A DNA stretch of 64,000 nucleotides, from assembly GCA_025980765.1 (NCBI GenBank), contig JAICXB010000009.1, forward strand, positions 1-64,000, given 5' to 3'. Positions 1,341 to 62,034 of this stretch are shown piece by piece (within the stretch, counting starts at the first letter, position 1; the number at the start of each line of letters is the position of its first letter). The position numbers were made by a program, and so were the translations under genes. Source of the stretch: Terriglobales bacterium. Its GTDB lineage: Bacteria; Acidobacteriota; Terriglobia; Terriglobales; Acidobacteriaceae. The notes under the pieces were generated by a model, which was given only the letters and a program-made list of their open reading frames with translations, did not search any database and was not told the origin of the DNA.

Positions 1341-1560
1341 GCCTTTCCTGTTCTTCCCCTGTTAATTTGGAGGAAGCTACTGGCTTCTAGCTCCTAGTTG
1401 CTAGCAAACCAAAGACTTAGAGCGAAAACCGAGCCTTTCCTGTTCTTCCCTGTTCGTTTCCTCAGCTTCCGCCGAAATTTGCAGCTTTTGGGCAGAAATC
1501 AACATTTCTTGCCACAACCCAAGAAATTCCCTGTATTTTTGCCCTGTTCTCAGGGAAGGT
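1341..1560 (+). repeat. Dispersed CCCTG element, copy 1
   Basis: This fills the gap between two convergent genes. It contains pairs of TTCCTGTTCTTCCCCTG-like words, a TAGC/CTAG-rich stretch (about 1388-1405), the shared core TTTTGGGCAGAAA (about 1486) and a final block AATTCCCTGTATTTTTGCCC near 1525. That block matches copy 2 (13.45 kb) in inverse orientation almost base for base. See copies 2, 3 and 4. No open frame or promoter is evident in it. Confidence 0.75.
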
Positions 1561-1587
1561 TGAATTTTTCCGGACCTAACCGGCTGG

Positions 1588-2241
1588 CTATCGCATTCCC
1601 ATGAGCACCGCAAATGCTCCTTTGCGCCATAGCATTTCGACCCGGAAGCCGCTGCTGTCGAGCAGCTTGATTTCCGCTTCGAGGGGCACGTAGGTGTCCT
1701 CGCTGGACCAGGCCAATAGAAATTCCTCGGCCTTTGCCGGGGAGTAGGAGCGCTGTAAATGCAACTTCCAAGCCTGGCGCTGCTCGCGGGCGAGGCCGGG
1801 ATTCGATGCTGGATTGCAATCCACGATGATAAAGACACCTCGACGACGTAACGCTCCATGAATGCGTCGATACAAATTGCTCTTCGCGCTGCGCGTCTGC
1901 AGATGATGTAAGGAGAAGGAGGCCACTACCGCGTCGCACGCAGGCAGCGGCGCGCGAGAAAAGGTCGAACAAATGAGGGTGCCGCGGCCGCCTAAGCGTC
2001 GGGCCGCAGCTTTCAGTATTTCCGGATCAAGGTCAATGCCGGTGATTCTGGCTTGAGCTGCCTTTTCCAGGCAGCGCACCGCCAGCGCGCCGGTGCCTGT
2101 GCCCAAATCGATGATCTCACGCGCCTTCGCGGGTACCGCTGCTGCAGCCGTATCGAGCATTTCGTCATAGTTAGGGATAAAGGTGCGAATGCGAGCATCG
2201 TACTCGGCCAAGTCAATTCCCAAATGTGTGGCGACGCCCAT
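1588..2241 (-). CDS. Class I SAM-dependent methyltransferase
   Basis: A 217-residue Rossmann-fold methyltransferase of unknown substrate. Motif I is IDLGTGTGALAV (about residues 43-54), followed by an acidic residue ending strand 2 (ITGIDLD) and a VVASFSLHHL motif IV region. The start is ATG at 2241. It lies 10 bases downstream of a small gene on the same strand and probably shares its transcript. It is soluble, with no signal peptide. Which molecule is methylated cannot be inferred. Confidence 0.85.
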   Translation of the reverse strand: MGVATHLGIDLAEYDARIRTFIPNYDEMLDTAAAAVPAKAREIIDLGTGTGALAVRCLEKAAQARITGIDLDPEILKAAARRLGGRGTLICSTFSRAPLPACDAVVASFSLHHLQTRSAKSNLYRRIHGALRRRGVFIIVDCNPASNPGLAREQRQAWKLHLQRSYSPAKAEEFLLAWSSEDTYVPLEAEIKLLDSSGFRVEMLWRKGAFAVLMGMR

Positions 2242-2251
2242 GATTACGCGA

Positions 2252-2569
2252 TCAGCTCTGGATTAGCTGCGGCCACTCCGATTCCCAGATCCACTCGAAA
2301 TCGACGCAGGTCAAGGTGAAGCGGAAGCGCTTGTTCGGAAGTGTATCAGCGTGAAACGTGACCAGCTCGAGCGGCCAATTCAGTTTCGCGAAATCCACAT
2401 TCTCTTGCCAGGCGGAAACGATTGTGGCGCTGGGGAACCGTGCGGCGATGATTCGCGAAGGATTGGCGCGTGGAAACCCGGAGCAGAAGATATCCCCATC
2501 CTGCATGGAGAAATTGCGCACCATGTAGATGCGGTGCTGCTCGTAAGAATCCAGGGGCAGATCGCTCAT
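2252..2569 (-). CDS. Small conserved-looking hypothetical protein
   Basis: A 105-residue soluble protein, not recognised. It is rich in aromatic residues (for example CVDFEWIWESEWPQL at the C-terminus), with no signal peptide or membrane span. The start ATG at 2569 has a GGCAGG-like ribosome site just upstream. The 10-base gap to the downstream methyltransferase suggests one operon. Confidence 0.6.
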   Translation of the reverse strand: MSDLPLDSYEQHRIYMVRNFSMQDGDIFCSGFPRANPSRIIAARFPSATIVSAWQENVDFAKLNWPLELVTFHADTLPNKRFRFTLTCVDFEWIWESEWPQLIQS

Positions 2570-2940
2570 ACCTGCCTTCGCCAGGAGCGCGGGTCAGCGG
2601 AGGGCAAGGCGCTCAGCAACATCTTGCACCTATTCTCAATGTTTAGCGATGAAGAGTTGGGTACTTCCTAGCCGGCCCGGAATCCGCCGTTGGATATCGC
2701 GCCGGATCTGTTGCCACCTGAGCTCACACTCAAGTTGCTGAAATTGAAGACCTGCCGCCACGACGTTGCTATCGTATCGCTCTTTTTCGAGTCGAATGTA
2801 CTAGCTTCAGCAGGGCTGGGGTGAATCCCCCAGGGCCGAACCGCAACAAAAAAGTGCGAAGAGACCGGCTGAATCCGGGCAGCATCCAAACTATAATCAG
2901 ACAATGCGAGCAGCGGGTATCGCTCTCGCCAGAAGGTCAA
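2570..2940. other. Intergenic region ahead of the S41-like gene
   Basis: 371 bases between divergent genes, with no convincing gene. It holds a small GC hairpin (CTGGGG at 2816-2821 with CCCCAG at 2828-2833) and the promoter-like TATAAT noted separately. Confidence 0.5.
2892..2897 (+). promoter_or_regulatory. Candidate -10 box (TATAAT) for the S41-like gene
   Basis: A perfect TATAAT lies 43 bases before the ATG at 2941, giving a plausible leader of about 37 bases. No good -35 box is seen 17-18 bases upstream, so this is a candidate only. It supports 2941 rather than the earlier GTG as the start. Confidence 0.4.
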
Positions 2941-4161
2941 ATGTCGAAGCAGCTTAAGGTTGGCGTTCTCTCTCTTTCTTTCACAATCGTAATTCTGATG
3001 GTTCTGGGCGGGCTGGGCGTTCACGCTTCCAGTGACGATGGCGCGTATCGCGAGTTGGGCGTTTACAGCGAAGTGCTCTCCCGCATCCGCACGGAATACG
3101 TTGAAGAGCCAAATTTTCCGGCAGTAACCGGCGGCGCTTTGCATGGACTTCTGGAGTCGCTAGACGCCAACTCCAGCTATCTCACGCCCGAAGAATACAA
3201 GTTCTATAAGACGCACATGCATGAAGGCCGCGCGAACATCGGCGCCACCATCAGCAAGCGCGCCGGCTACGCTGCAGTGGTATCGGTAATTCCCGGCGGG
3301 CCGGCGGACAAGGCCGGACTGCAGAGCGGCGACTACATCGAGGCAATCGAAGGCAAAAGCACGCATGAGATGTCGCTGGCGGCTGTGGACGAAGAAATTG
3401 CCGGAAAGCAGGGAACGACAATCAATTTTTCCATGATTCGTCCCGGCAAGGCCGAGCCGCAGAAGATCACGGTAACGCGCGACAACGTTCAGATTCCCGG
3501 CACTACGGACAAGATCCTGGATCAGACGATCGCCGACATCGATCCGCTTACACTGACCAAAGGCAAGGCCCAGGAGATCGCGGCCAGACTGAAGGAAGAC
3601 CAGAAGAACGGCGCGAAGAAAATCATTCTCGATTTGCGCAACGTCTCTGAAGGCGACCCCAACGAAGCCATTGCGGTGGCGAACCTATTTCTGAACCATG
3701 GAGTCATCACCTACTTGCAAGGGCAGAAATTCCCGAAACAGACCTTCACCGCCGATCCGCAGAAGGACGTCACCAACCTGCCTCTAGTCGTGCTGGTAAA
3801 TCGCGGTACGGCTGGGCCGGGAGAAATTGTCGCGGCCGCCATCCTCGATAACAATCGCGGCGACGTTGTAGGCAATAAGACGTTTGGCTCCGGCTCCGTG
3901 CAGAGGGTCATCGACATACCCGACGGTTCGGCGCTGATCCTTTCCGTGGCCAAGTACTACATGCCGAGCGGCAAGGCCATTGAAGATATGGATCCGCTGC
4001 ATGCTGGAGTCACTCCGAACATTCTCGTCGCCAGTAGTGATGATGACGGCTTGCCGGACGACGAAGATTCCGCGACGCCGAGTACGCCGGAGAAGCCTAA
4101 AGCGCAGAAAGACGATGAGCAGCTCCGCCGCGCAGTGCAGGTGCTGAGAGCGCGCAGCTAG
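2941..4161 (+). CDS. S41 (C-terminal processing protease) family protein lacking catalytic Ser and Lys
   Basis: A 406-residue protein with an N-terminal signal/anchor (residues 8-27), a PDZ domain (roughly 85-180) and an S41 core. ATG 2941 is preceded by AGAAGG, and a GTG 120 bases upstream is less likely. The protein aligns with CtpA/Prc, where the nucleophile Ser sits in GSASASE and the general-base Lys 25 residues later in TFGKG. Here the first site reads GTAGPGE (Gly292 where Ser is expected) and the second TFGSG (Ser317 where Lys is expected), both checked in the DNA. It is therefore predicted to bind but not cleave peptides, or to use a different mechanism. PBP1A and PASTA genes follow on the same strand, suggesting an envelope role. 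Confidence 0.85.
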   Translation: MSKQLKVGVLSLSFTIVILMVLGGLGVHASSDDGAYRELGVYSEVLSRIRTEYVEEPNFPAVTGGALHGLLESLDANSSYLTPEEYKFYKTHMHEGRANIGATISKRAGYAAVVSVIPGGPADKAGLQSGDYIEAIEGKSTHEMSLAAVDEEIAGKQGTTINFSMIRPGKAEPQKITVTRDNVQIPGTTDKILDQTIADIDPLTLTKGKAQEIAARLKEDQKNGAKKIILDLRNVSEGDPNEAIAVANLFLNHGVITYLQGQKFPKQTFTADPQKDVTNLPLVVLVNRGTAGPGEIVAAAILDNNRGDVVGNKTFGSGSVQRVIDIPDGSALILSVAKYYMPSGKAIEDMDPLHAGVTPNILVASSDDDGLPDDEDSATPSTPEKPKAQKDDEQLRRAVQVLRARS

Positions 4162-4167
4162 AATCCT

Positions 4168-4252
4168 CCAGTGGACTTGGTGGACTGACTGGATTTCATG
4201 GACAAATTTCTAGAGGTCCATCTCGTCCATTGTGTCCACTGAGTCCACCTGG
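4168..4252. repeat. Palindromic repeat, GTGGACTTG units
   Basis: Left arm CCAGTGGACTTGGTGGACT (4168-4186), right arm of GTCCA words ending GTCCACTGAGTCCACCTGG (4234-4252), imperfectly complementary around a short AT-rich spacer. It lies between the S41-like gene and PBP1A and could act as a transcript hairpin. Confidence 0.65.
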
Positions 4253-4365
4253 TGCGCACCGCACTTTTCTTCTCGACTCCATCCACTCCCTGGCGATAAT
4301 GTGCAGGAGAGCTCCTCACCCCAGCGGTTCTCTTGAACACCTCGCGGCATTGCCGCGATTCAGCC

Positions 4366-7424: not shown

Positions 7425-7454
7425 TTCTCACGAGCATGGAAGTTTGCCCCCGCT

Positions 7455-8819: not shown

Positions 8820-8821
8820 AA

Positions 8822-13456: not shown

Positions 13457-13704
13457 CCTGAGAACAGGGGAAAAATACAGGGAATTTTCACCGACCCAGC
13501 CCAACCTGCTATAACTCCCGAGTTAATTCCCCTGTTTTCTGGCAGATGCAACCTAGTAGCAAGCCGCTGATTGCAAGAGCTGAGGAAAGGAACAGGAAAG
13601 GAACAGGAAAGGTCAGTATTTTCCACCTAAGCCAATGATTTGCTAGCAGTTAGCAGCCAACAGCTATTAGCTGGCTCCGAAATAACAGGAAAAGAACAGG
13701 GAAC
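13457..13704 (-). repeat. Dispersed CCCTG element, copy 2
   Basis: Inverted relative to copy 1 and sits between two gene 3' ends. Starts CCTGAGAACAGGGG, then AAAAATACAGGGAATTTTC, later AGGAAAGGAACAGGAAAGG (about 13583-13611), a TAGCAGTTAGCAGCC block (about 13644) and AACAGGAAAAGAACAGGG. The block order is the reverse of copy 1. The whole 13421-13855 gap holds nothing else recognisable. Confidence 0.75.
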
Positions 13705-15631: not shown

Positions 15632-15815
15632 GACCGCCGACGGCCGTTGTGGGGGTGCGGAATCGTACCCTGCTCTGGGTACCGGAATCAAGGATGTTCC
15701 GTCCCATTCTTGCCATACGTCAAAGCGCTTCAAAGCGCGTAATCACTGGATTGAACGGCTTTGATGCTTGCTGCTGGATGTGCTTGTCCGAATAATCCTT
15801 GTGCTTTTTCAAGAA

Positions 15816-15876
15816 TCCGTCCGGCTGTGGCTTTGGGGAGAAGCATGGTGCGGGCGGATTCGCGAAAAGCAGGGGG
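15816..15876 (+). promoter_or_regulatory. Conserved leader, copy 1 (ahead of subtilase 1)
   Basis: Nearly identical to the leader at 19091. CCGTCCG (15817-15823) can pair with CGGGCGG (15851-15857), enclosing a TTTGGGGAGAAGC segment, followed by the ribosome site AGGGGG. It could be a structured 5' UTR or just shared because of recent duplication. Confidence 0.4.
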
Positions 15877-15882
15877 ATGTAC

Positions 15883-18800
15883 ATGCGGAACGCTGTCGCG
15901 ATTGCGGCTTTGACAATTTTTGCGGTTAGCGCGGTTTCCGCCGGTGGAGCCCAGGCGGGTCGGATCGACGGGATCTCACCTGTGGCCGCTCGGGCTGGCG
16001 AGCAGGTTGTGATTAGCGGAATTGGCTTTGGCGGTCCGAATGTGACCATCACCGTCGGCGGCATTCCGGCCAAGCTGGTTGCGGCCACGGGAAACCGGGC
16101 AGTGTTCATCGTTCCGGAGGGAGTGAAGCCGGGCGTCACCACTGTCGACGCAACGAATCCTGGCGGACACGCCGGCAGCATCGCCTTCACCTTCCTGGAA
16201 GGCACGTTGCTGGCCGGCGACCCAACCAAGGGCGTAGCAGACGTAATCCTCGACAAGAGTTCGCCCGGAGTGGGCGGCGACGATCTGCTGAACGGGCTGA
16301 TCCTCACGCGGCTGGAGATTGTGGTCACACCCGATGCTACCGTCGCCGAGTTGAACGCCGCGCTGGAGAAGGTCGAGGGCGGCATTGTCGCCAGCTCGAA
16401 GGGGCTGCGGGACATCACCATCGCGGTGCCGCGCCAAGAGTCGGCGGCAGACCTGGATGCAATTGCAACTACTTTGGAAGCGATGCCGGGCATTCGCCAT
16501 GCCGGCACTACGACCGTGCCCCAGGCGAAATTCCTGTATTTCCCGCCAACCTTCGACTCGGTCGTGGTGCTGCGGCACTTGCTGCCGAGCCGTTTTCCGG
16601 CGGCCTGGAATGTAGCCAACAGGCTGCAGACCTCAGATGATCCAAGCGGCCTATGTACAGTGACGCCGGTAAATCTCCTGGTAGCCGATGAGTTCGGCTC
16701 AACACCGCCGGCCGTTTTTTCTAAAGTGCCGTTGTTCAACCCGCCGGCTACAGCGCCCTTTGGATCGATTGCACCCGACGAACTGCACGGATACGAAGTC
16801 GGCTTGGTGGCCAGCGCATCTGGGATTGGCGCAAATCCAGTGGGCGGGTGCGTGAATGAGGTGCTGACGCAGGTCGCCGGCTTCGGAATCAATGGCACCA
16901 CCGATGCCATCGTGGCAAACATGCCTGCGGGGAGGTTCATCATCAACTACTCGATAGGTTTCCCAGATAACTGTGCCCTCGCCGCATGCCTGCCGCCCAG
17001 CGATCGCATGCCCTCGGCAACCACCAGAGCCTACGAGGGCCTGGACTGGAAGAAGAAAACCAAGAGCCGCTGGCACGATTTTCTAATTGTGGCCGCCGCC
17101 GGCAACGAAGCAGATGAAGAGAGTACGGCCATTTATCCCGGAATGGGAGATGCCCGATATGGGTCGCAGATGGAAATCGCACAAGTTCCCGATCCGCTGA
17201 TGAGCTGGGCTGTAGATGGCAAGCTGTGGGACCCAACTCTGGGCTTTTCCTCGCTCGGTTTCACGTCGCTCGCGGCGAGCCCCACAGCATATTCGTCTTT
17301 AGTGCAGGAAATTACTGACGCGCAGCTCACCGGGCCAGATGCCGTGGCCGACAATGTGATCGTGGTCGGCAGCGCGACAGCAGCGCCGCGTGGAACAGTG
17401 CTGACCCAGCGCGTGGGCCCCGAGCAATTGAGCCCGTCTGACTTTTCCGACCACAATCCCGACGTGCTGGCAGTTGGCGAAAATGTCTTCGACGCACAAG
17501 AACTGCAGGGCACGAGCTTCGCTGCGCCTGCAGTATCGGGACTTGCGGCTTATCTATGGTTGTTGAGTCCGGAGCTGGAAAATCGCGGCCCGGCCACAAC
17601 CAAGCAGGCCATTGTCGCCAATGCGCGCAACAACATCATTGACGCCTATGCGTCAATGCTGTCACTGGATGCGGCAGCGACTCCCGACCCCTCCAGCGCG
17701 CCCATCCGCCGGGCGCTGCTTGATGTGAATCAGGATGGCGTTTTCAATGAGCTCGACCTCATCCTTTTCTTGCAACACCTCTACTTCTTCGATACCAACA
17801 CGAACACCATCACCTTCGAAGCGCCGGCGAGCACGGCTGCCGATTTCAGCGTTTTCGACCTGAACGGCGATGGCTTCACCACCAGCGGATCGCGGCGCGA
17901 GCGCTTCGACCTCGACCGCGTGGGCTCGACCCAATTCGGCGCCGCCAATTACTCAATCGTTACGCAGAGCATTGAAGGCGAGGACGTACGCTTCGATGAG
18001 AACGAACTGACCGATGTAGAGATTCTCTGCTATTACGCCTACTCGCCGATGTACCAGGGCGATACCGACGCGCGCAAGAAGCTGATGGCAGGGCGCTGCG
18101 GCCTGGCTGTCGATCCGCCGACGGTCACGCTTGATCCTGGACACACGCAGCAGTTCACGGTAAATGCGCCCAGCGCCGACCCGGTGACGTGGACGGCGAC
18201 CTGCGGAAACATTGACTCCAACAGTGGTTTCTACACCGCGCCGTCTCAGGGCGGGACGTGCACGGTGCGCGCCACCAGCAATGTCGATTCAACACAATTC
18301 GCGGAGGCGACTGTCACCGTAAACGGCGCAATCGGGCACTTCGATCTGGATACCGGATTCCGCGCGGAACTTCGCGCACTGGTCGGAACTAATCTTCTTT
18401 TTCCCGATCAGGAGCTCACCGCCTCGAACTCCAGCACAGTGAATCCGCCGCTGCCACTTCTGGTCAAAGTCACCGACGTGTTCAATCCCAGCGGCGGAGC
18501 GCCAGCGAATTACAGCTTCAGCGCACAGGCCGATGGTCCGCTTCCAGGCCGCAATGACCCGGACGCTTCTGGCATGTTCAATGGGCAAGTAAATTGCTCG
18601 GGAAGTGGATCTGCGAAGAAGGATGCGGATGGAAACATCATAGCTGCCCCCGCCATTCCACGGTTGCAGCCGTCCACTGCCGGCGACCTCTCCGGCAGTG
18701 TGCGAACGGGCACGGTCACCTTGACGGTGAATGGGCAATTGACAAGGTCAGTGACACCGGCATCGTCGAGCTCTGAAAACGTGTCCATCGAATGGAATTC

Positions 18801-19020
18801 TGCTGGTGGTCTCTCGCAGGCCATGTTGATAAATGCGAATGACTTCGACCCCAGCATGGGCGTGATTCCATTCAGCAAAACAGTGACTATCACAGCGCCG
18901 GGATCGTTCAGTGTGGACTGGGGCGCCGATTTGGACTGTCGTGGCAGTACCGACTCGGACGGCAACCTGAGCGTGAACGGAAAAGCAACAGTCTCGTTCA
19001 GTTACAGCTTGTCGAACTGA
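15883..19020 (+). CDS. Secreted multidomain subtilase (S8), paralog 1
   Basis: 1045 residues from ATG 15883, chosen because AGGGGG sits 6 bases upstream (an ATG at 15877 is too close). Signal peptide 1-25; IPT/TIG domain (28-110); I9-like propeptide (about 140-210); S8 catalytic domain with Asp269 (VADEFGS), His302 (HGYEV), oxyanion Asn408 (AAAGNEADE) and Ser545 (GTSFAAPAVSG); two EF-hand/dockerin-like loops (DVNQDGVFNELDL, DLNGDGFTTSG); an Ig-like domain; and a unique C-terminal beta domain from about 815. The triad is intact and the Asp-His spacing of 33 fits subtilisins. Probably an extracellular protease. Tandem duplicate of the next gene. Confidence 0.87.
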   Translation: MRNAVAIAALTIFAVSAVSAGGAQAGRIDGISPVAARAGEQVVISGIGFGGPNVTITVGGIPAKLVAATGNRAVFIVPEGVKPGVTTVDATNPGGHAGSIAFTFLEGTLLAGDPTKGVADVILDKSSPGVGGDDLLNGLILTRLEIVVTPDATVAELNAALEKVEGGIVASSKGLRDITIAVPRQESAADLDAIATTLEAMPGIRHAGTTTVPQAKFLYFPPTFDSVVVLRHLLPSRFPAAWNVANRLQTSDDPSGLCTVTPVNLLVADEFGSTPPAVFSKVPLFNPPATAPFGSIAPDELHGYEVGLVASASGIGANPVGGCVNEVLTQVAGFGINGTTDAIVANMPAGRFIINYSIGFPDNCALAACLPPSDRMPSATTRAYEGLDWKKKTKSRWHDFLIVAAAGNEADEESTAIYPGMGDARYGSQMEIAQVPDPLMSWAVDGKLWDPTLGFSSLGFTSLAASPTAYSSLVQEITDAQLTGPDAVADNVIVVGSATAAPRGTVLTQRVGPEQLSPSDFSDHNPDVLAVGENVFDAQELQGTSFAAPAVSGLAAYLWLLSPELENRGPATTKQAIVANARNNIIDAYASMLSLDAAATPDPSSAPIRRALLDVNQDGVFNELDLILFLQHLYFFDTNTNTITFEAPASTAADFSVFDLNGDGFTTSGSRRERFDLDRVGSTQFGAANYSIVTQSIEGEDVRFDENELTDVEILCYYAYSPMYQGDTDARKKLMAGRCGLAVDPPTVTLDPGHTQQFTVNAPSADPVTWTATCGNIDSNSGFYTAPSQGGTCTVRATSNVDSTQFAEATVTVNGAIGHFDLDTGFRAELRALVGTNLLFPDQELTASNSSTVNPPLPLLVKVTDVFNPSGGAPANYSFSAQADGPLPGRNDPDASGMFNGQVNCSGSGSAKKDADGNIIAAPAIPRLQPSTAGDLSGSVRTGTVTLTVNGQLTRSVTPASSSSENVSIEWNSAGGLSQAMLINANDFDPSMGVIPFSKTVTITAPGSFSVDWGADLDCRGSTDSDGNLSVNGKATVSFSYSLSN

Positions 19021-19090: not shown

Positions 19091-19156
19091 TCCGTCCGGC
19101 TGTGATCTTTGGGGAGAAGCCATGGTAACGGGCGGATTCGCGAAAAGCCAAGGGGG
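19091..19156 (+). promoter_or_regulatory. Conserved leader, copy 2 (ahead of subtilase 2)
   Basis: Same layout as the leader at 15816: CCGTCCG (19092-19098), TTTGGGGAGAAGC, CGGGCGG (19129-19135), then AGGGGG before the start. It lies in the 142-base gap between the two subtilase genes, so the second gene may have its own promoter. A small hairpin (AGCCGC/GCGGCT, 19048-19064) precedes it without a T-tract. Confidence 0.4.
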
Positions 19157-19162
19157 ATGTAC

Positions 19163-22100
19163 ATGCGGAACGCTGTCGCGATTGCCGTTTTGACAATTTT
19201 TGCGGTCTGCACGGTCTCTGCCGTTGGCGCCCAGGCGGGTAGAATCGACGGAATCTCACCCGCGGCCGCTCGGGCTGGTGAGCAGGTAGTGATCAGCGGA
19301 ATTGGCTTCGGCGGACCGAACGTGACCATCACCGTCGGCGACATTCCGGCCAAGCTGGTTGCGGCTACGGGAAATCGGGCACTGTTCATCGTGCCGGAGG
19401 GAGTGAAGCCGGGCGTCACCACCATCGACGCAACGAATCCTGGCGGACACGCCGGCAGTATCACGTTCCGATTTCTGGAAGGGACACTGCTGGCCGGCGA
19501 CCCGAGCAAGGATGTAGCCGATGTAATCCTCGACAAAAGCTCGCCGGGCGTAGGTGGCCATGACTTGCTCAACGGGCTGATCCTGACGCGGCTGGAGATC
19601 GTAGTCACCCCCGACGCCACAGTTGAACAGTTGAACGCCGCACTGGAAAAGGTTGAAGGCGGCATCGTCTCCAGCTCGAAGGGGCTGCGGGACATTACCA
19701 TAGCGGTGCCACGTCAGACATCGGCAGCAGACCTGGACGCAATCGCGGCAACGCTGGAAGAGATGCCCGGCATTCGCCATGCCGACAGTACGACCGTGCC
19801 GCAGGCCAAGTTCCTGTATTTCCCGCCGACGTTCGATTCCGTCGTGGCGCTACGACATTTGCTCCCGAGCCGCTTTCCCGCCGCCTGGAATCTCGCCGGG
19901 AGACTGCAAACATCGCCAGATCCGAGCGGGCTATGCGCGGTCACGCCAGTGAACCTCGTCATAGCCGATGAGTTCGGCTCAACCATTCCGGCGGCATTCA
20001 GCAATGTGCCACTCTTCAGTCCTCCGGCTCCCGCGCCCGCAGGATCCATTGCTCCCGACGAACAGCACGGATACGAAGTGGGCTTGGTGGCGAGCGCGTC
20101 GGGAGTGGGCGCCAACCCGGTGGGCGGATGCGTAAACGAGATCTTGGCGCAGGTTGCCGGCTTCGGGATCAATCGCGCTACCGATGCGATTGTGGCCAAT
20201 ATGCCCGCCGGCAAGTTCATCGTGAACTATTCCATGGGCTTCGCAGATAGCTGTGTCCTGGCCGCATGCCTGCCGCCCAGCGATCACATGCGCTCGGCAG
20301 CCACCAGAGCCTACGAGGGTCTGGACTGGAAGAAGAAGACGAAAAGCCGCTGGCAGGACTTCCTGATCGTGGCTGCCGCCGGCAATGAGGCAGACGAAGA
20401 GAGTACAGCGATTTATCCCGGAATGGGAGATGCCCGATTCGGCTCGCAGATGGAGATCGCAAAAGTTCCCGATCCGTTGATGAGTTGGGCTGTCGATGGC
20501 AAGCTGTGGGACCCGACTGCAGGCTTTGCCTCAGAGGGTTTCACGTCGCTCGCGGCGAGCCCCACAGCATATTCGACTTTAGTGCAGGAAATTACTGACG
20601 CGCAGCTCGCCGGGCCAGATGCGGTTGCTGACAATGTGATCGTCGTCGGCAGCGCGACCGCGCCGCCGGACGGAACAGTGCTGACCCAGCGCGTAGGCCC
20701 CGAGCAACTGAGCCCGTCCACATTCTCCGACCACAACTCCGACGTGCTGGCGGTCGGCGAAAATGTCTTCGACATACAAGAATTGCAGGGCACGAGCTTC
20801 GCTGCACCCGCGGTTTCGGGACTTGCGGCATATCTATGGCTGCTGAGTCCGGAGCTGGAAGCCCGCGGTCCGGCCGCGACCAAGCGAGCGATTGTCGGCA
20901 ATGCGCGCAACAACATCATTGACGCGTATGCATCGATGCTGTCGCTGGACGCAGCCACTACGCCCGACCCCTCCAGCGCGCTCATCCGCCGGGCGCTGCT
21001 TGACGTGAATCAGGACGGCGTCTTCAACGAACAGGACCTCATTGCGTTCCTGCAACATCTCTACTTCTTCGACACCAATACGAACACGATCACCTTCGAA
21101 GCGCCGGCGAGCACGGCGGCTGACTTCAGCGTCTTCGACCTGAACGGCGATGGCTTCACCACCAGCGGATCGCGACGCGAGCGCTTCGATCTCGATCGCA
21201 TCGGCTCCACGCAATTCGGCGCCGCCAACTACTCGATCGTCACTCAGAGCATTGAAGGCCAGGATGTCCGCTTTGACGAAAACGAACTCACCGATGTCGA
21301 AATCCTCTGCTATTACGCATACTCGCCGATGTATCAGGGCGACATGGACGCACGCAAAACATTAATGGCTGGGCGCTGCGGCTTGGCAGTCGATCCAGCG
21401 CGGGTCACGCTTAACTCCGGCCAGACGCAGCAGTTCAAAGTAAACGCGCCCACCGCCGATCCGGTGACCTGGACGGCAACGTGCGGAAACGTCGACTCCA
21501 ATAGCGGTTTCTACACCGCGCCCTCCCAGAGCGGGACGTGTACCGTTCGCGCTACCAGCAACGCCAACCCAAGCCAGTTCGGCGAAGCGACCGTCACCGT
21601 CATCGGGTCCAGCGCAAACAAGATCGCGCTGACGTCCAGAAGGTGTCGTACTGAAGCTCAGGCAACCGCAATCTTCACCTTCTCAGATCCGTTCGATATT
21701 GCTGCAAAAAATTGTTCGCCGTTCCCGCCGCCTCCTTACACCGTTCCCGCTGTGAATCTCAACGACGCCACCAGCGGGTTCACCTACTCGGCGAACTATA
21801 TAGAGAGCTTGTCGCCCGTCGAGATCGCAAGCGATTCGATATCGCAGGGCACATTGGACGTCGTGGCGGCTGTTGATCCGCCGGCTATCGTGCCTGGAGG
21901 GATGCCCGATACCACGTTCTTAAGGGCAGCTGGGTCGGTGGACGTATTGCTTCAAGTGAAGGATCTAGGACCTTATCAATTGACGGTCAGCGGCAGTTTT
22001 TCGACTGACAACCAGATTTTGTCGTTTTTCAACGGGACTCAGGTTCAGATCTGCACCGGCGTGATTGACTGCCAAGTCTTCAGGCCGAACTTTCAGAGCG

Positions 22101-22267
22101 AAGCGCTAGGGGGCACCTTCAATTTCTCGCGACGTCTGGGGAGCGGCGGAGCGAATGAGGTCGAGTTCTTCATTGCTGCAGACTCTGGCTTCACCTCAGC
22201 ACTTGACCAGCCCAGGCAAGCCAATGCGGAGGCGACGGTGATCTTCTCGATCCAGAGAGTGCAATGA
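19163..22267 (+). CDS. Secreted multidomain subtilase (S8), paralog 2
   Basis: 1034 residues, start ATG 19163 with the same AGGGGG site. It is collinear and very similar to paralog 1 through signal peptide, IPT/TIG, propeptide, S8 domain (Asp269, His302 and the GTSFAAPAVSG Ser all kept), EF-hand-like loops and Ig-like domain. Similarity stops abruptly after the Ig-like domain (about base 21600), where a different Cys-containing beta-rich tail replaces that of paralog 1. The tail is probably a target- or surface-binding module. Tandem duplication with tail exchange is the simplest history. Confidence 0.87.
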   Translation: MRNAVAIAVLTIFAVCTVSAVGAQAGRIDGISPAAARAGEQVVISGIGFGGPNVTITVGDIPAKLVAATGNRALFIVPEGVKPGVTTIDATNPGGHAGSITFRFLEGTLLAGDPSKDVADVILDKSSPGVGGHDLLNGLILTRLEIVVTPDATVEQLNAALEKVEGGIVSSSKGLRDITIAVPRQTSAADLDAIAATLEEMPGIRHADSTTVPQAKFLYFPPTFDSVVALRHLLPSRFPAAWNLAGRLQTSPDPSGLCAVTPVNLVIADEFGSTIPAAFSNVPLFSPPAPAPAGSIAPDEQHGYEVGLVASASGVGANPVGGCVNEILAQVAGFGINRATDAIVANMPAGKFIVNYSMGFADSCVLAACLPPSDHMRSAATRAYEGLDWKKKTKSRWQDFLIVAAAGNEADEESTAIYPGMGDARFGSQMEIAKVPDPLMSWAVDGKLWDPTAGFASEGFTSLAASPTAYSTLVQEITDAQLAGPDAVADNVIVVGSATAPPDGTVLTQRVGPEQLSPSTFSDHNSDVLAVGENVFDIQELQGTSFAAPAVSGLAAYLWLLSPELEARGPAATKRAIVGNARNNIIDAYASMLSLDAATTPDPSSALIRRALLDVNQDGVFNEQDLIAFLQHLYFFDTNTNTITFEAPASTAADFSVFDLNGDGFTTSGSRRERFDLDRIGSTQFGAANYSIVTQSIEGQDVRFDENELTDVEILCYYAYSPMYQGDMDARKTLMAGRCGLAVDPARVTLNSGQTQQFKVNAPTADPVTWTATCGNVDSNSGFYTAPSQSGTCTVRATSNANPSQFGEATVTVIGSSANKIALTSRRCRTEAQATAIFTFSDPFDIAAKNCSPFPPPPYTVPAVNLNDATSGFTYSANYIESLSPVEIASDSISQGTLDVVAAVDPPAIVPGGMPDTTFLRAAGSVDVLLQVKDLGPYQLTVSGSFSTDNQILSFFNGTQVQICTGVIDCQVFRPNFQSEALGGTFNFSRRLGSGGANEVEFFIAADSGFTSALDQPRQANAEATVIFSIQRVQ

Positions 22268-24706: not shown

Positions 24707-24731
24707 TTCAATCGAAAAACACAAAAATCGA

Positions 24732-24848
24732 TTGAACACGGAGGACACGAAGGGAACGAAGGTAAGAACGAGGAACAAACTTTGCAATCACCGAATGCCC
24801 TCGCCGGCCAATCAAGTCCTCTGTGACCTCCGTGTCCTCCGTGTTCAA
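24732..24848. repeat. Palindromic repeat, GAGGACACG units, copy 1
   Basis: Perfect 18-bp inverted arms: TTGAACACGGAGGACACG (24732-24749) and its complement at 24831-24848, with an 81-base spacer carrying more degenerate units. Located between convergent genes, where it could form a bidirectional transcript hairpin. Confidence 0.8.
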
Positions 24849-24881
24849 AGGTTTTGACTTGGCCGAATGCTGATTGCTATC

Positions 24882-46235: not shown

Positions 46236-46440
46236 TGGAAAAAATTCCCTGCTAAATCCCTGCTCTTTGGCACTTTCTTCAAAAACTGTCACTTTCGTGA
46301 GTGTTTGCGGGGCTCCTGCGACTTTTCCACACATTCCCTGCTAATTCCCTGTTCTTTTGCAAGATTTGCGATTTTTGGGCAGAATTTGACGATTCCACAG
46401 GCCGCAGAAAAAAATTCCCTGCAAATTTCCCTGTTATTCT
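46236..46440 (+). repeat. Dispersed CCCTG element, copy 3
   Basis: Three paired modules in order: AAATTCCCTGCTAAATCCC; ATTCCCTGCTAATTCCCTG (about 46333) followed by GCGATTTTTGGGCAGAAT; and AAATTCCCTGCAAATTTCCC (about 46412). Same order as copy 4 read on the opposite strand. Lies between divergent genes and ends about 50 bases before the thiE start. Nothing else in the 46145-46487 gap. Confidence 0.78.
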
Positions 46441-46487
46441 TGCGAATCGCATCTTCCTACACTTTTTTGGCCGCCCAGCTTTGCCTC

Positions 46488-52469: not shown

Positions 52470-52517
52470 AGCTGAAGTCTAGCATCGGACTTGCATACTG
52501 GAAGCACAGCTCTTTTG

Positions 52518-52629
52518 CCACGGAGGACACGGAGGAATACTGAGGAACACAGATCAGACGAGAAGGAAAAGCGGTAAGCAGCGGTGAAATCAGGTTTCCA
52601 AACCTCTGTGGCCTCCGCGTCCTCTGTGG
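52518..52629. repeat. Palindromic repeat, GAGGACACG units, copy 2
   Basis: Arms CCACGGAGGACACGGAGG (52518-52535) and 52612-52629 pair at 16 of 18 positions. Same family as the repeat at 24732. Here it lies between divergent gene starts (tmk and the zinc-ribbon gene). Confidence 0.78.
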
Positions 52630-52676
52630 TTAAATGACCCAGTATTTCGCACGACGCAAACTGGCAGGAGGTTCGT

Positions 52677-52925: not shown

Positions 52926-52929
52926 TTCT

Positions 52930-55596: not shown

Positions 55597-55668
55597 CTTC
55601 TTCTCCCAATTCAGTACCACGCCCAGTGGCAGGGGGCCAGGTTACCGGTCCGCTTCCGCGGATCGTAC

Positions 55669-55998: not shown

Positions 55999-56005
55999 GA
56001 ACGCT

Positions 56006-56018
56006 CTCGTATATCGAG
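56006..56018. promoter_or_regulatory. Candidate PadR operator
   Basis: CTCGTATATCGAG: CTCG/CGAG arms around an AT-rich centre, 7 bases upstream of the padR-type start. Position suggests autoregulation; the AT-rich dyad type fits PadR sites in general. Confidence 0.45.
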
Positions 56019-56179
56019 TTACATAGGTAGACTATGCCAGCCAGGACAGGTTAGCAAGAGCTTCGATTTTGATCTTTGAAGCCACGGCCGACGGCGCCTG
56101 AACCAATGGCACTTTTGGGGCACACTCATGGCGGGCGCCTCGCGCTCGCTTTTTAGCCGAAACAGGTGTCCCTGTGTTG

Positions 56180-56923: not shown

Positions 56924-56977
56924 CTTTCCTCGCCTGACACAACATCCAAATCTGTACGGCAGACAAGCTGCCACGTC

Positions 56978-57619
56978 ATGTCTAACACGCACCCCATTCC
57001 AACATCCAGTTCCCGCATTGCCGTCGTCGTGCTGGGCATCATTGTCACGCTATTTGCCGCGGGCTATATGGTGGGGCAAGCTTCAAAGCAATCCGGTACG
57101 CGGGCCTCGCAGGCATGGCACTTGCATTCTCGTGTTCCACTTGGCTCCGATACGCTTTTGCTGAATCCAGCGCATGAAGTAGTCAGCATTCTTGCGCTGG
57201 CAGAATCTCCTCAGTTCGAAGGCTGGAGTCTCGCTCTAAACCACCAGAAGCCGGCGCTGCTTGACGTCTCCGGCAAGCCGGTGCAAGCCCTTCCGCGAGT
57301 GGTCACCTTTCGCGTGACCGCAGGTACTCGCGACAAAGTGATGGACGGCAATCCGTTGCCGCTGGATGTTTCTCAAGATCTGAATTCATTCCTGCTGGGG
57401 CTGCACTTTCAGGCTGAAGTATTTCGCGGCATGCAAATGCGGCGATTGCAGCCGGTAAGCGCGGCGATGATCGGCGTGCCCGCGACGGAAGCCTCCAATG
57501 AACGCATCTATCGCGTGAAATTCAACTTCGGAAGTGTGCGTCCCGATGACCGCATCGTGCTGATCGTCACCGATGCCAGAGGTCAGCGACTGACGAAGTT
57601 CCATCTGGAATTTCTGTAG
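56978..57619 (+). CDS. Membrane-anchored hypothetical protein
   Basis: 213 residues. One N-terminal hydrophobic span (about 14-34, IAVVVLGIIVTLFAAGYMVG), then a mixed alpha/beta periplasmic part with no recognised motif. ATG 56978. Possibly an envelope accessory protein. Not recognised. Confidence 0.65.
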   Translation: MSNTHPIPTSSSRIAVVVLGIIVTLFAAGYMVGQASKQSGTRASQAWHLHSRVPLGSDTLLLNPAHEVVSILALAESPQFEGWSLALNHQKPALLDVSGKPVQALPRVVTFRVTAGTRDKVMDGNPLPLDVSQDLNSFLLGLHFQAEVFRGMQMRRLQPVSAAMIGVPATEASNERIYRVKFNFGSVRPDDRIVLIVTDARGQRLTKFHLEFL

Positions 57620-57797
57620 TCCGCCTTTGGATCCGCAAAGCATCGGTAATTCCGACTTTGCGGAGCCAATGCCAGTCTCGCCAATTGTCGATCTCATCGG
57701 CAAATCGCTAGAGGATCCATTTACATCTAGTCCGACGGACTAGCGAACGCATGCTATGCAATACAATAGCCGCGCTCAGAGGAGAGCTCTTACTGGC

Positions 57798-58421
57798 ATG
57801 AGAATGATCGCGGCGATATTGGTATTGCTGGTTGCGGGGCTACAGTCGTCATGGTCGCAGTCCACCGAAATGGTCCGCGGCACGAAAGAAGGCGAGACCT
57901 TTGTCGCTGGAGGCCACAGTGTTCCCGGGGGGCGCGGCGACAGCGGCGTTTTCCAGGCGGGTTTCCGTTTCGGTCGCGTATTGCTCTCGCGTCCATCGGC
58001 TAACCTGGAATACTCGATTGATTTGATTCCGGTTTATGTGATCACCCAGCGGCAGAATGCCTACGGCGCGAGTTTTACTCCGTTCAATCTGAAATACAAT
58101 TTCACTTCCTTCCGACGAGTGGTCCCTTATGCTGAACTTGGTGGTGGGGTGCTCTTCACTAATCACGACGTCCCCGATGGTACAAACAGCGTCAACTTCA
58201 CGCCGCAGGCGGGCATTGGAGTGCATGTACCTATACATTCAGGCTCGAACCGTCATCTCTCGATCGCTCTGAAATACGTTCATATTTCAAATGCCGGACT
58301 CGCTGTTCCCAATCCGGGACTGAATACAGTGCAATTCAAGATCTCGATTGGACACTTCTGCAGCCCGGACTCTTCCGCCTATAACGATCAAACTGGAAAA
58401 TGCAAGTATTACCGCCCCTAG
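57798..58421 (+). CDS. PagL-like lipid A 3-O-deacylase / acyloxyacyl hydrolase
   Basis: Outer-membrane beta-barrel that removes an ester-linked acyl chain from lipid A. 207 residues from ATG 57798 (GAGGAG about 13 bases upstream; ATG 57756 is an alternative). Signal peptide 1-20. The PagL catalytic motif LKYVHISNAGLAVPNPG is present with His162 and Ser164. C-terminal Cys-containing extension (residues 188-207) after the last strand. Suggests this organism remodels its LPS. Confidence 0.85.
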   Translation: MRMIAAILVLLVAGLQSSWSQSTEMVRGTKEGETFVAGGHSVPGGRGDSGVFQAGFRFGRVLLSRPSANLEYSIDLIPVYVITQRQNAYGASFTPFNLKYNFTSFRRVVPYAELGGGVLFTNHDVPDGTNSVNFTPQAGIGVHVPIHSGSNRHLSIALKYVHISNAGLAVPNPGLNTVQFKISIGHFCSPDSSAYNDQTGKCKYYRP

Positions 58422-58538
58422 ATCCGCGCGTCGGCAGCCAACCTGATCGGGGCGCAAGAACTAACGGGCTTAATCCCCCAGCCCCCTCGCCCACCGCCTG
58501 AACGGGTACGGCGGGCACCACGCCCAGGTTGTCGTAGC

Positions 58539-60248
58539 TCAGAACTGGAACATGTCGAGCATGTCTCCGGACAAGTCGTTGCGGGGATTCAAGCTGCCCA
58601 ATTTCCAGTTCCACTGAATAAGCTTCAGAATGGAAACGTGGTCCATCTGCACATGAGACACGTACCCCTTCTTAGCGAAAGGTGAAATAACCAGGGTGGG
58701 CACGCGCGGCCCCAAACCCTGCGCATCGAGCTGGGGTGGAGGAACATGGTCGTACCATCCCCCCGCGGTGTCGAAGGTGACGATGATTGCGGTCGTGTTC
58801 CAGATTGGAGACGCCTGTACCTCATGGACCAAAGCATCGATGAAGCCAATGCCCACTGAGAGCGGCTTGTTATTGCCAGGATGTAGGTCCTCGGAGCCGC
58901 TGGGGATGATGAACGAGACTGCGGGCACGTTCCCGCTCTTCAGCAGCCCGGCAAATTTTACGTAATCCTGAGTGCTCGCTTCAGTAGAGGTGAAGTACTG
59001 GAAGGGATTGTGTACGGAGCTCGAATCTGAACAGATGCCGAACGATTGCTGGAATACGCCCCAGGTGAATCCCTTCGCAGTCAGCTGATCCGCGGCATTT
59101 GTGAAGGTCAGGGCAGGCGATGGCGTTCCCTGTTGATTGCAGGGACCGAAGGCTGGATCAATCGTCTTGGTGTTGTTGCTGTCTTGCGCGGCAATCATAT
59201 ACAGCTGATTTGTCGGTGCTTCGGCAATGACCGAACTGAAATAATGATCGGCCAGGGCGAACTGGTCGGCATAACCCCACAATGTGGCAATACCAGGAAC
59301 GGTATTGTCGAAGTAGCCCAGGCCTACATCACCATCGAAAGCGGCGTACTTGTCCATCAGCCCGCCATCGATTTCTCCCAAATATGCGGTGCGACTCTCC
59401 GGTAGCAGCGGTGAAACCGGATTTGTTTGCAGGAACGGTGAAATCGTTTTTCCCGCTTTGTCGACCTGTGTGAAACCGGGAATGCCAGGACGAATGCCCT
59501 CGACCGTGTTGCCGTTGGTCCCGGGATAAACGCCAAAAAGCTGATCAAAACTTCGGTTTTGCATGATCACAACGATGATGTGTTGCAGCGGCGAAGCCGT
59601 AGGCCCGGGCGCATTCACTGTTACCACTGCCATTTGTGTCACGGTTTGGTTGTCGGCAGAAGTTGCAGTTGCGGTATAGGTTGTCGTGACGGTTGGTGTG
59701 ACCGCAACGCTGCCGGTCGCAACGTTTTGCTGAGCCCCCACTCCGTTATCGATTGTCAAGGAGGTCGCGTTGGTTGTTGTCCAGCTCAAAGTTGACGAGC
59801 TGCCGCTGTCGATTGTGGCTGGACTTGCTGCAAACGTCAGTGTTGGCGCTGGCCCAGGAGTGGTCGGAGGCGTCACCGTAACCGTCACCTGCTGCGTGAC
59901 GCTGTGGTTGTTAGCACCTGAAGCGGTTGCGGTATAGGTGGTTGTCGACGTCGGAGAAACACTCACGCTTCCTGCGGCGATATTCTGCTGCGCTCCAACT
60001 CCATTGTCGATCGTAAGTGAGGTCGCGTTGGTGGTTGTCCAACTCAATGTTGATGAGCTGCCGCTGACAATAGTCGCGGGAGCGGCGGCAAAGCTCAGAG
60101 TTGGCGCTGGATCTGTAGGCGGCGGATTGGTCGCAGGTTGCACCGTTCCACCGCCGCAACCGACCGCGATGACTATGCTTAGAATTGCAAAGAATAAGAA
60201 AGCAAAGCGAATTCCGGGGAACGATTTCAATGCCCTTACCTCTTGCAT
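58539..60248 (-). CDS. Phospholipase-C-like phosphoesterase lipoprotein with altered metal site and two Ig-like repeats
   Basis: 569 residues. Lipobox AVGCGGG (Cys31); two almost identical Ig-like repeats (about 49-130 and 135-212) sharing SGSSSTLSWTTTNATSLTID; then a phosphoesterase (PF04185-type) domain. In active relatives the metal site includes Glu in ENRSFD and an acidic pair near TxDE/DD.GGWYDHVPPP. Here the first reads IMQNRSFD (Gln230-Asn231, no Glu) and the second FDTAGGWYDHVPPP (Asp493-Thr494). Both changes were checked in the DNA. The fold is likely kept but activity may be lost or altered. ATG 60248. Cell-surface location. Confidence 0.85.
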   Translation of the reverse strand: MQEVRALKSFPGIRFAFLFFAILSIVIAVGCGGGTVQPATNPPPTDPAPTLSFAAAPATIVSGSSSTLSWTTTNATSLTIDNGVGAQQNIAAGSVSVSPTSTTTYTATASGANNHSVTQQVTVTVTPPTTPGPAPTLTFAASPATIDSGSSSTLSWTTTNATSLTIDNGVGAQQNVATGSVAVTPTVTTTYTATATSADNQTVTQMAVVTVNAPGPTASPLQHIIVVIMQNRSFDQLFGVYPGTNGNTVEGIRPGIPGFTQVDKAGKTISPFLQTNPVSPLLPESRTAYLGEIDGGLMDKYAAFDGDVGLGYFDNTVPGIATLWGYADQFALADHYFSSVIAEAPTNQLYMIAAQDSNNTKTIDPAFGPCNQQGTPSPALTFTNAADQLTAKGFTWGVFQQSFGICSDSSSVHNPFQYFTSTEASTQDYVKFAGLLKSGNVPAVSFIIPSGSEDLHPGNNKPLSVGIGFIDALVHEVQASPIWNTTAIIVTFDTAGGWYDHVPPPQLDAQGLGPRVPTLVISPFAKKGYVSHVQMDHVSILKLIQWNWKLGSLNPRNDLSGDMLDMFQF

Positions 60249-60376
60249 TGAAGTTGGAAGGGGCAGCTCTGGAGGGGGTTGTTCGGTAAAGAACGATTAA
60301 CAGTCTCGTACCGTCAAATCCAGTGACTCACCCCAAAGTCGTTTCGAACCTCCTGATTTAGAATCGTCTTGGTCCT

Positions 60377-61735
60377 ATGTTTGAAAATCTCTCCGAAAAG
60401 CTGCAACGAACATTCAAAAACCTGCGCGGACAGGGCTCCCTCAACGAAGAAAACATGCAGGAAGCGCTGCGGGAGATCCGCCTGGCGCTGCTCGAAGCGG
60501 ATGTCAATTTCAAAGTAGTCAAAGAACTCATCGACCACATTCGGGAAAAAGCCATTGGCGCCGAGGTGATGCTGAAGATCTCGCCGACTGAGCAGGTCGT
60601 GAAGATCGTCCATGACGAATTGATCAACATCCTGGGCAAGGACACGGCCAAATTGAAATTTGCCTCGCAGCCGCCGACGGTGGTGCTAATGGCCGGCCTA
60701 CAGGGATCGGGTAAAACCACATCTTCAGGCAAGTTGGCGGCTTGGCTGAAAAAAGGCGGACATCGCCCCATGCTGGTGTCGGTGGACGTGTATCGTCCCG
60801 CCGCGCGCCAGCAATTGAAAATCGTCGCCAATGCCATCTCAGCCAATATCTATGAAGGAAAGATCGATGGCGAGGCGAATACGGCTGTGGTGGAAAGGTT
60901 GGCCAAGGAGGCACGCCGCGAGGCGATGAATTCGGGATGCGACGTGCTGATCGTCGATACGGCAGGCCGGCTGCATATCGACGATGAATTGATGAGCGAG
61001 ATGCAGCAACTCAAGAACCTGCTGAACCCGCAGGAAATCTTGTTTGTCGCCGACGCCATGACCGGACAGGATGCCGTAAATTCCGCCAACGAGTTCCACA
61101 AAAAACTGAATCTTACCGGGGTCATTCTCACGAAAATGGATGGCGATGCCCGAGGCGGCGCGGCGCTCTCGATCCGCAATGTCACCGGACAGCCAATCAA
61201 ATTCCTCGGTGTTGGCGAAAAATACGATGCGCTGGAGCCGTTTCATCCCGATCGCATCGCCGGCCGCATTCTTGGCATGGGCGACATCCTCTCGCTGGTC
61301 GAAAAAGCCCAGGAGACGCTCGACGCTAAGAAGTCCGAAGCTTTCGCAAAAAAGGCACTCAGTGGCGACGGCTTCTCGCTCGAAGACTTCCGCGAACAAT
61401 TGCGGCAGATCAAGAAGCTGGGCTCCTTGCAAAGCATTGTGAAGATGCTGCCCAGCATAGGTCCCTTTGCCGGCATCCAGAACATGGCCGACAAGGTGGA
61501 TGACAAAGAATTAAATCGGGTGGAAGCGATCATCAATTCGATGACCGTGCACGAGCGCGATCACCATGAAGTGATCAATGGCAGCCGCCGCAAGCGCATC
61601 GCCCGCGGCTCCGGAACCAGCGTACAAGAGGTGAATCAGCTCCTTAAGCAATACGCCATGATGAAGAAGCAGTTCAAGAGCCTGAGCAAGGGCGGCGGGC
61701 TCTCGCGCAAACTGGCAGGTATGCGATTCCGGTGA
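60377..61735 (+). CDS. ffh: Signal recognition particle protein Ffh
   Basis: SRP GTPase that targets nascent membrane proteins with 4.5S RNA. 452 residues: N domain (1-95), G domain with GLQGSGKTT (107-115), DVYRPAARQQL, VDTAGRLH and TKMDGDARGGA, then a methionine-rich M domain with the RNA-binding RRKRIARGSGTSVQEVNQLL. All motifs intact. ATG 60377. Heads the conserved ffh-rpsP-khpA-rimM order, interrupted here by a repeat element and one small gene. Confidence 0.97.
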   Translation: MFENLSEKLQRTFKNLRGQGSLNEENMQEALREIRLALLEADVNFKVVKELIDHIREKAIGAEVMLKISPTEQVVKIVHDELINILGKDTAKLKFASQPPTVVLMAGLQGSGKTTSSGKLAAWLKKGGHRPMLVSVDVYRPAARQQLKIVANAISANIYEGKIDGEANTAVVERLAKEARREAMNSGCDVLIVDTAGRLHIDDELMSEMQQLKNLLNPQEILFVADAMTGQDAVNSANEFHKKLNLTGVILTKMDGDARGGAALSIRNVTGQPIKFLGVGEKYDALEPFHPDRIAGRILGMGDILSLVEKAQETLDAKKSEAFAKKALSGDGFSLEDFREQLRQIKKLGSLQSIVKMLPSIGPFAGIQNMADKVDDKELNRVEAIINSMTVHERDHHEVINGSRRKRIARGSGTSVQEVNQLLKQYAMMKKQFKSLSKGGGLSRKLAGMRFR

Positions 61736-61805
61736 ACCGATCAGGCTGATTCCGTAGCTTTTCAGTTAAGAAACCAAACCGGCCATAGACCGCTACTTCT
61801 CAATC

Positions 61806-62034
61806 CAGAATTCCCTGCTCCGGAAAAGAACAGGGAAATTTGCAGGGAATTTTGTGACGGAGCTCCAAAAAGCTCGAGATTCTGCCCAAAATCCGCGAAT
61901 TCCGTCGCCGAGCAGGGAATTAACAGGGAATTTGTAAATATTCGAATAAAGCTTTGCGGCTGAACGGCTTATGACCATTTGGGAGAGATTCAGGAAATCA
62001 GCAGGGAATTTTGCAGGGAATTTCTTGTTTTCCA
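61806..62034 (-). repeat. Dispersed CCCTG element, copy 4
   Basis: Reads, on the minus strand, in the same module order as copy 3. A perfect 10-bp inverted pair AATTCCCTGC (61809-61818) / GCAGGGAATT (61842-61851) lies at one end; the middle has GAGCAGGGAATTAACAGGGA and ATTCTGCCCAAAATCCGCG (the shared core, inverted). The right end AGCAGGGAATTTTGCAGGG runs to within 25 bases of the next gene's start. Inserted between ffh and the following small gene. Confidence 0.78.

Follow-up and report, generated by a model that had tools for sequence, protein, structure and literature searches.

The 64,000-nt stretch analysed here (the window; forward strand of contig JAICXB010000009.1 of a Terriglobales bacterium) carries four copies of an array of short direct words, which belong to a multi-copy family whose high copy number is restricted to the genus. 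The family has a fixed architecture, many of its copies are inherited in place, its words have been respelled within the arrays between species, and similar arrays adjoin genes for large serine recombinases in other bacteria. From this we infer a protein that binds the words, looping of the bound DNA, an origin from the end of a mobile element and, in the host of today, a part in organising the chromosome or in recombination. Taken as a whole, the reading that the array is a protein-binding platform derived from the end of a serine-recombinase element, with selected words and a role for the host, is given a probability of about 0.52.

The architecture emerged from an alignment of 27 copies from the window's own genome. 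A first group of words (M1) is followed after ~78 bp by a second (M2, AATTCCCTGCTAATTCCCTG), a core and a third group (M3, AATTCCCTGCAnATTTCCCTG). Words repeat at 11 bp in M2 and at 12 bp in M3, and the group starts lie ~89 bp (M1 to M2) and ~81 bp (M2 to M3) apart. The gap between M2 and M3, within whose 70 bp the AATTTGCGGATTTTGGGCAGAATTCGA-like core is placed, was 70 or 71 bp long in 21 of the 24 arrays measured from the 27 regions. By eye, about half of the 27 copies carry an inverted CAGGGAA word within ~20 bp of M3. The M1-M2 spacer comes in two or more types of sequence. A protein-binding array would be expected to keep its spacing, and to conserve its words while the spacers diverge, and both were observed here.

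A strict word-pair pattern (at most two mismatches) matched 39 times in the own genome, and its reversed control not once. We then compared six genomes of the genus (G000 to G005, where G000 is the window's own, 3.5 Mb and incomplete) using a profile of the M2-M3 part, built from sequence only and trained on 23 own-genome copies. At E 0.01 it returned 106, 85, 67, 32, 90 and 48 matches, respectively, counts in which the modules of one array may figure separately and for which at most 150 candidates per genome were scored. A pair pattern neutral at the fourth word base gave 34, 113, 73, 11, 97 and 70 hits in the same genomes and 0-7 in each of 55 other relatives. Among 297 genomes sampled over the phylum, with congeners absent, only the own genome was multi-copy, and three others had one hit each. 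Further copies are thus found both in the own genome and in congeners, and their likeness extends from the words to a common core and common spacings. No match to copy 4 was obtained in plasmid and phage collections, and no description of this array family in the literature, which was searched by literal words and topics, the papers listed being judged by title and the start of the abstract.

Judging from their neighbours, many copies have been inherited in position and orientation. For 163 arrays, a subset of the copies in the six genomes, we took as much as 1.7 kb of flanking sequence and compared the adjacent genes between genomes, noting for each protein match (identity of 50% or more) its side and strand with respect to the array. 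This yielded 30 concordant cross-genome pairs, one flipped pair and eight others, with several concordant pairs sharing a member and hence not independent. When the words were masked, 12 of the 30 concordant pairs fell within the top 5% of spacer similarity relative to non-orthologous pairs, as compared to 0 of 9 of the remainder. The ratio of 30 to 1, together with the spacer ranks, argues for inheritance in place. Most of the concordance lies among G001, G004 and G005, with two concordant places in G000. In the window, copy 3 has a flipped partner and copy 4 two partners of the third kind; none of the four window copies is among those for which inheritance in place was shown.

The words themselves differ between species, mainly at the fourth base. 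This base is C in 150 of 153 words of G000, 76 of 84 of G004 and 32 of 44 of G001, fractions that are biased upward because the G000 loci and most G001 and G004 loci had been chosen by searches favouring TTCCCTG, and in 13 of 256 words of G005, where loci were chosen with the fourth-base-neutral pattern. A fourth-base-neutral listing for G004 was still mostly C. Words in G005 read TTC(A/G)CTG (147 A, 95 G, 13 C and 1 T), with A preferred in M2 and G in M3 across 15 arrays, and in G003, ATCCCTG and ATCGCTG were frequent among the 13 loci inspected. Four orthologous pairs with a G005 member, namely those with alignable spacers, could be compared position by position: of 27 words, 9 retained the fourth base, whereas agreement was 140 of 162 over the remaining six positions of the word and 335 of 502 in the spacer (a fifth pair, L333/L278, stands outside these totals). 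At these separate loci the spelling changed in place, on conserved word frames, and the simplest cause would be a word-reading protein with altered preference. From its spread, C would be the older state of the fourth base. More broadly, 12 of the 13 G005 arrays in concordant pairs have mainly the A/G spelling, and the remaining one, L278, is all C. Avoidance of the word under restriction was considered as a cause of the change and rejected, as TTCCCTG is not depleted outside the arrays in G005 (19 of 86 TTCNCTG words there, 44 of 206 in G004).

Two further cases concern the spelling. L333 (G004) and L278 (G005) are almost identical in array and spacer, possibly owing to recent transfer. L251 (G005:C35:5124-5354) contains a tandem partial duplication of M2 and core, in which the first M2 is partly TTCCCTG and the second has A/G.

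Outside the genus, comparable arrays lie next to recombinase genes. A scan of 257 Gb of public genomes for the exact word pair returned at least 109 stretches, many from Alphaproteobacteria; among the matches listed, and after exclusion of 20 stretches from the genus, there were 57 loci with at least four words (arrays) and 32 bare pairs. Of these 57 arrays, 23 are preceded on the same strand by a large serine recombinase, whose match stops 7-333 bp short of the exact pair; the query proteins came from two of these loci. Positions drawn at random within the loci had a recombinase upstream in 192 of 11,400 cases, and the bare pairs in 3 of 32. The array-linked recombinases carry Resolvase and Recombinase domains. 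On the far side, 54 of the listed loci were scanned with ARAGORN. In 19 of them the 3′ end of a transfer RNA (tRNA) gene (15 Ser, 3 Gln, 1 Trp) follows the array at a distance of 168-182 bp, and three further loci have one at 110-212 bp; some contigs end before a tRNA could show. Because many of these loci derive from related Rhodobacterales, neither 23 of 57 nor 19 of 54 is a count of independent cases.

The association is also seen closer to the genus and in viral contigs. Another genus of the same acidobacterial family encodes a full-length recombinase (44% identity) whose gene is followed immediately on the 3′ side by two pairs of words and an inverted one, and the succession of an 11-bp pair, a 12-bp pair and an inverted word occurs at several alphaproteobacterial loci (e.g. 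L055, L070 and L124) and in G016. On viral contigs the pair was present in 24 stretches: a recombinase lies 61-181 bp upstream of three multi-word arrays and 190 bp upstream of one bare pair, and in two more stretches it is ~3.6 and 4.3 kb upstream.

Further observations were made at these loci. Where the tRNA is absent, a shared GAGACnGGTTCGCnnnGGACTGnnnnCACCGCCA-like stretch follows the array, as noted by eye, in L065, L066, L070, L080, L085 and L101, and likewise in L119, L133, L137, L155, L159 and, more weakly, L163. It matches no Rfam family and may be another insertion target or core site. In G011, N- and C-terminal matches to a recombinase of the array-linked type occur separately, ~17 kb apart (G011:C23:317488-317979 and 334866-335060).

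On the reading we favour, a sequence-specific DNA-binding protein would load side by side on direct words spaced by about one helical turn. The words stand in pairs or triplets, and M2 and M3, which flank the ~70-bp core, could be brought together over it in a looped complex, as a recombinase does at an attachment site. The platform would derive from the end of an element encoding a large serine recombinase; this origin is probable, since words in a similar layout are found on the 3′ side of such genes in other bacteria. It would then have spread in the genus to tens of intergenic sites, with no recombinase gene beside it. Many copies are now inherited in place and would be under selection by the postulated protein, whose word preference would have altered between species; selection indeed appears to act on the arrays that stay in place. 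Among the possibilities that the initial annotation had offered, a protein-binding array is thereby the best supported, on the strength of the helical-turn words, the fixed spacing and the spelling shift at inherited sites, with the protein itself postulated. The likeliest function is a host role, perhaps in chromosome organisation or recombination control; regulation of neighbouring genes is less likely, because both the gaps and the neighbours are diverse. A bolder version, which we put forward tentatively, would see in the arrays chromosome-wide nucleoprotein platforms domesticated from recombinase attachment ends, the enzyme gone, the sites passed on at fixed places and the words rewritten one site after another in step with a co-evolving protein, as species "dialects" of a non-coding code.

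Several findings weigh against this reading. Searches of the genus for the Resolvase and C-terminal domains did not find the binding protein: PF00239 (Resolvase) had no match at E 1e-5 in G000, G001 or G003, of which G001 is 99% complete and has 113 word-pair hits, and for the C-terminal domain of the recombinase even the best match in the genus (E 0.12) was not convincing. The same value led us to discard a stand-alone C-terminal domain as reader, and the two negatives together to discard that serine recombinase as the protein reading the words at present. Beyond the genus, 27 of the 57 listed arrays have at least 700 bp of upstream sequence without such a recombinase (six others have less upstream DNA, and one has a recombinase gene elsewhere). 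The eight plasmid and phage recombinase loci read, found independently of the words, all lack word arrays, so the array is an optional part of such elements; where present, it separates the enzyme gene from the place at which the element presumably inserts. The geometry differs as well, with a gap between word groups of ~85-107 bp in recombinase-linked arrays versus 70-71 bp in the genus, and in many of the former either the spacing is 11 bp in both pairs or single words follow each other at 21-22 bp. As for the respelling, the four pairs that display it were picked for their alignable spacers, and the fifth, concordant pair L333/L278 keeps TTCCCTG throughout. At several shared neighbours the core type differs, as in L219/L249, or spacer similarity is at chance level; some shared sites may thus represent repeat insertions, given that 18 of the 30 concordant pairs are unremarkable in spacer similarity and that the core type is not always the same. 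Finally, the neighbouring genes share no evident function.

The main rival is that the family still moves. The arrays would then be recognition ends of non-autonomous elements resembling miniature inverted-repeat transposable elements (MITEs), mobilised by an enzyme acting in trans, and the inherited copies would be old insertions. This is possible, albeit clearly less probable than the favoured platform. It draws its strength from G005, in which a ~350-bp repeat holds the array (-142 to +207 around M2; loci L241-L276). About 15 long copies, one of them shortened, are 83-94% identical to the reference copy and have sharp edges, while three more match only from -24 on (76-84%); the inner unit starts with GAGCAACGGAT and ends with ATCCGTTGCTC. 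Since this long repeat holds the array in ~15 copies, the array can multiply, which keeps the mobile-element reading alive. Recombinase genes beside arrays in other bacteria and the presence of arrays in all kinds of gene gaps likewise speak for it, and the tandem partial duplication in L251 and the differing cores of L219/L249 would fit repeated insertion. Against it, neither 30 concordant pairs to one flipped nor respelling in place would be expected of dead old insertions, and there was no recent burst in the own genome, as its copies are ~70-82% alike to copy 3 across the M2-M3 part. The MITE-like element proposed in the initial annotation is partly supported: it gained from the G005 repeat and the recombinase-adjacent arrays and lost from inheritance in place and from the window copies, in which no terminal repeat was seen. 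Terminal inverted repeats were also not evident in the aligned own-genome copies, and by eye no target-site duplication was noticed at the G005 repeat, the congeners (~65-74% identical in the genes compared) being too diverged to provide empty sites. As a separate observation, the left edge of the G005 repeat contains a GCACCGAAC..GTTCGGTGCTACCACG palindrome.

The search for a mobilising enzyme in the genus covered three families. No serine recombinase lies near the listed genus arrays. Of the tyrosine integrases (Phage_integrase; 51 matches in the six genomes, 4-14 each), one is near a listed array by eye: at G004:C55:11349-12148, an array lies ~0.46 kb from a 127-aa fragment (G004:C55:11909-12148), and this family was set aside as a candidate. 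Y1_Tnp gave 42 matches in the six genomes, three of them within ~2.5 kb of a listed array by eye, which is around a rough, uncomputed estimate of chance. A system of repetitive extragenic palindromes (REP) and their associated tyrosine transposases (RAYT) was rejected on this ground and because the units are direct words rather than palindromes. Targeting of tRNA genes within the genus was dismissed too, given that 2 of 45 loci scanned hold a tRNA and neither has the array at 168-182 bp.

A different objection concerns origin only and is compatible with the other readings, namely that the likeness to arrays beside recombinases reflects convergence on a short AT-rich word. The word is indeed short, the public scan lists at least 32 bare pairs, three with an upstream recombinase, and the word-group gaps differ as described. 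Convergence is nonetheless unlikely, as the order of 11-bp pair, 12-bp pair and inverted word recurs in L055, L070, L124 and G016 and 23 of 57 listed arrays follow the same kind of gene.

Still less probable is that the arrays are operators through which one transcription factor regulates the genes next to them. Their intergenic position, their inheritance beside the same gene in the same orientation and the spelling change would all agree with operators. Yet in a survey by crude gene calls, compared by counts alone, 72 arrays could be assigned a gap type: 20 lie between convergent genes, 11 between divergent genes and 41 between tandem genes (17 running with and 24 against them), close to the distribution of 144 background gaps (35 convergent, 30 divergent and 79 tandem). 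Two further arrays were scored within an open reading frame (ORF) and eight received no assignment. The neighbouring genes look diverse, both by Pfam and by eye, and at least six words over 200 bp would be large for an operator. On the same crude gene calls, with gap types near background and no convergent excess, a terminator or promoter role was rejected.

A structured RNA, which the initial annotation had suggested along with a check for compensating changes, or a bidirectional terminator in which M3 and the inverted word form a hairpin, is very improbable: the two can pair in some copies (e.g. L015 and L019), but the inverted word is absent from about half of the 27, RNAalifold on 25 copies gave a consensus fold of five weak pairs with no compensatory change, neither the window nor 13 loci of the genus yielded an Rfam match at the gathering score, and arrays occupy all kinds of gaps without an excess of convergent ones.

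We now turn to the four window copies, each of which was found by direct reading where the initial annotation had reported it, as an array of direct words 205-250 bp long. A relaxed word-pair pattern (at most three mismatches) matched 22 times in the window, as compared to 5.9 +/- 2.4 (maximum 13) in 100 shuffles. The M2-M3 profile, R1, recovered copies 1 and 2, both outside its training set, in which copies 3 and 4 are included. The copies were also AT-rich relative to their surroundings, as had been claimed: their GC content of 0.43-0.47 lies 11-16 points below that of the 500-bp flanks (0.55-0.59; 0.573 window-wide). The paired direct words of the earlier description held, although there are three modules at near-fixed spacing rather than two or three, and the words do not keep a uniform N3 separation, their spacing being 11 bp within M2 but 12 bp within M3. 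A TTTTGGGCAGAA core had been ascribed to at least three copies; copies 1, 3 and 4 have it, and copy 2 does not.

Copy 1 occupies 1341-1560 on the plus strand (R1 match 1470-1552, E 4e-10). Its M1 (1344-1361) and M2 (1434-1463) consist of degenerate words (TTTCCTG and similar), identified from the sequence and by pattern scan. The core (1486-1497) and M3 (1524-1546) were read from the sequence, as was a closing inverted word on the minus strand (1551-1557; CAGGGAA on the plus strand). Copy 2, on the minus strand at 13457-13704 (R1 match 13457-13505, E 9e-5), has a longer M2-M3 stretch; sequence and pattern scan place its M1 at 13686-13703, its M2 at 13582-13612 and its M3 at 13465-13486, the words of M1 and M2 again being degenerate. 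Copy 3 lies on the plus strand at 46236-46440 (R1 match 46332-46444), with M1 (46243-46262) and M2 (46332-46351) found by the word-pair pattern and the core (46373-46384) and M3 (46413-46433) read from the sequence. Copy 4, on the minus strand at 61806-62034 (R1 match 61819-61933), opens with an M1 of three words (61991-62022; sequence and word-pair pattern), followed by M2 (61913-61932; word-pair pattern) and, from the sequence, the core (61880-61891), M3 (61831-61851) and a closing inverted word on the plus strand (61811-61817). Copies 1 and 4 therefore each have a single inverted CAGGGAA word after the third module.

The claim that all copies are strictly intergenic needed care for copy 3, which a rough gene caller put inside an ORF extended upstream. 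Because a thiamine-phosphate-synthase domain was found in the frame starting at 46440, this copy is very probably intergenic. No tRNA gene was found in the window. Elsewhere in the window, two neighbouring ORFs (15799-19020, 1073 aa; 19109-22267, 1052 aa) share a 300-bp stretch that is 91% identical at a spacing of 3280 bp, which suggests a tandem duplication. A 254-nt direct repeat at 59615-60126 (258-bp spacing) is 70% identical, and inverted repeats of CCTCCGTGTCCTCCGTG type, distinct from the word arrays, occur at 24725-24855 and 52512-52535.

Coordinated respelling in place, at orthologous non-coding sites, is a strong sign of a trans-acting reader and offers a handle for finding one. If that reader is an architectural or recombination protein, the family would exemplify how a host can adopt the end of a mobile element as a site used across its chromosome. 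Since the layout recurs next to recombinases of other phyla, it provides a signature by which one class of integrative elements may be recognised in sequence; no description of a class with such arrays was found in the literature searched.

Among known systems, the closest resemblance is to the arm arrays of recombinase attachment sites, for example those of the lambda and Tn916 integrases. There, too, direct words at helical-turn spacing are grouped around a core; in other bacteria the present arrays follow a recombinase gene on its 3′ side, and many keep a constant distance to a tRNA 3′ end. Unlike these systems, the enzyme beside the arrays elsewhere is a serine and not a tyrosine recombinase, and in the genus the arrays exist in tens of copies, with no such gene adjacent to those listed. 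Modules of a large serine recombinase and DUF2924 on plasmids and phages are related to the array-adjacent recombinases, phage WO recombinases being among the matches, whereas word arrays were missing from all eight loci inspected on plasmids and phages. With bacterial interspersed mosaic elements (BIME) and REP served by RAYT, and with MITEs, the arrays share their shortness, intergenic position and tens of copies per genome; in contrast, they are built of direct words and not of one palindrome, and no terminal inverted repeats were seen in the window copies. Finally, the dialects of the Neisseriaceae DNA uptake sequence, compared by spelling pattern alone, provide a precedent for a genomic word spelled differently in related species, although here the words are assembled into arrays of fixed geometry.

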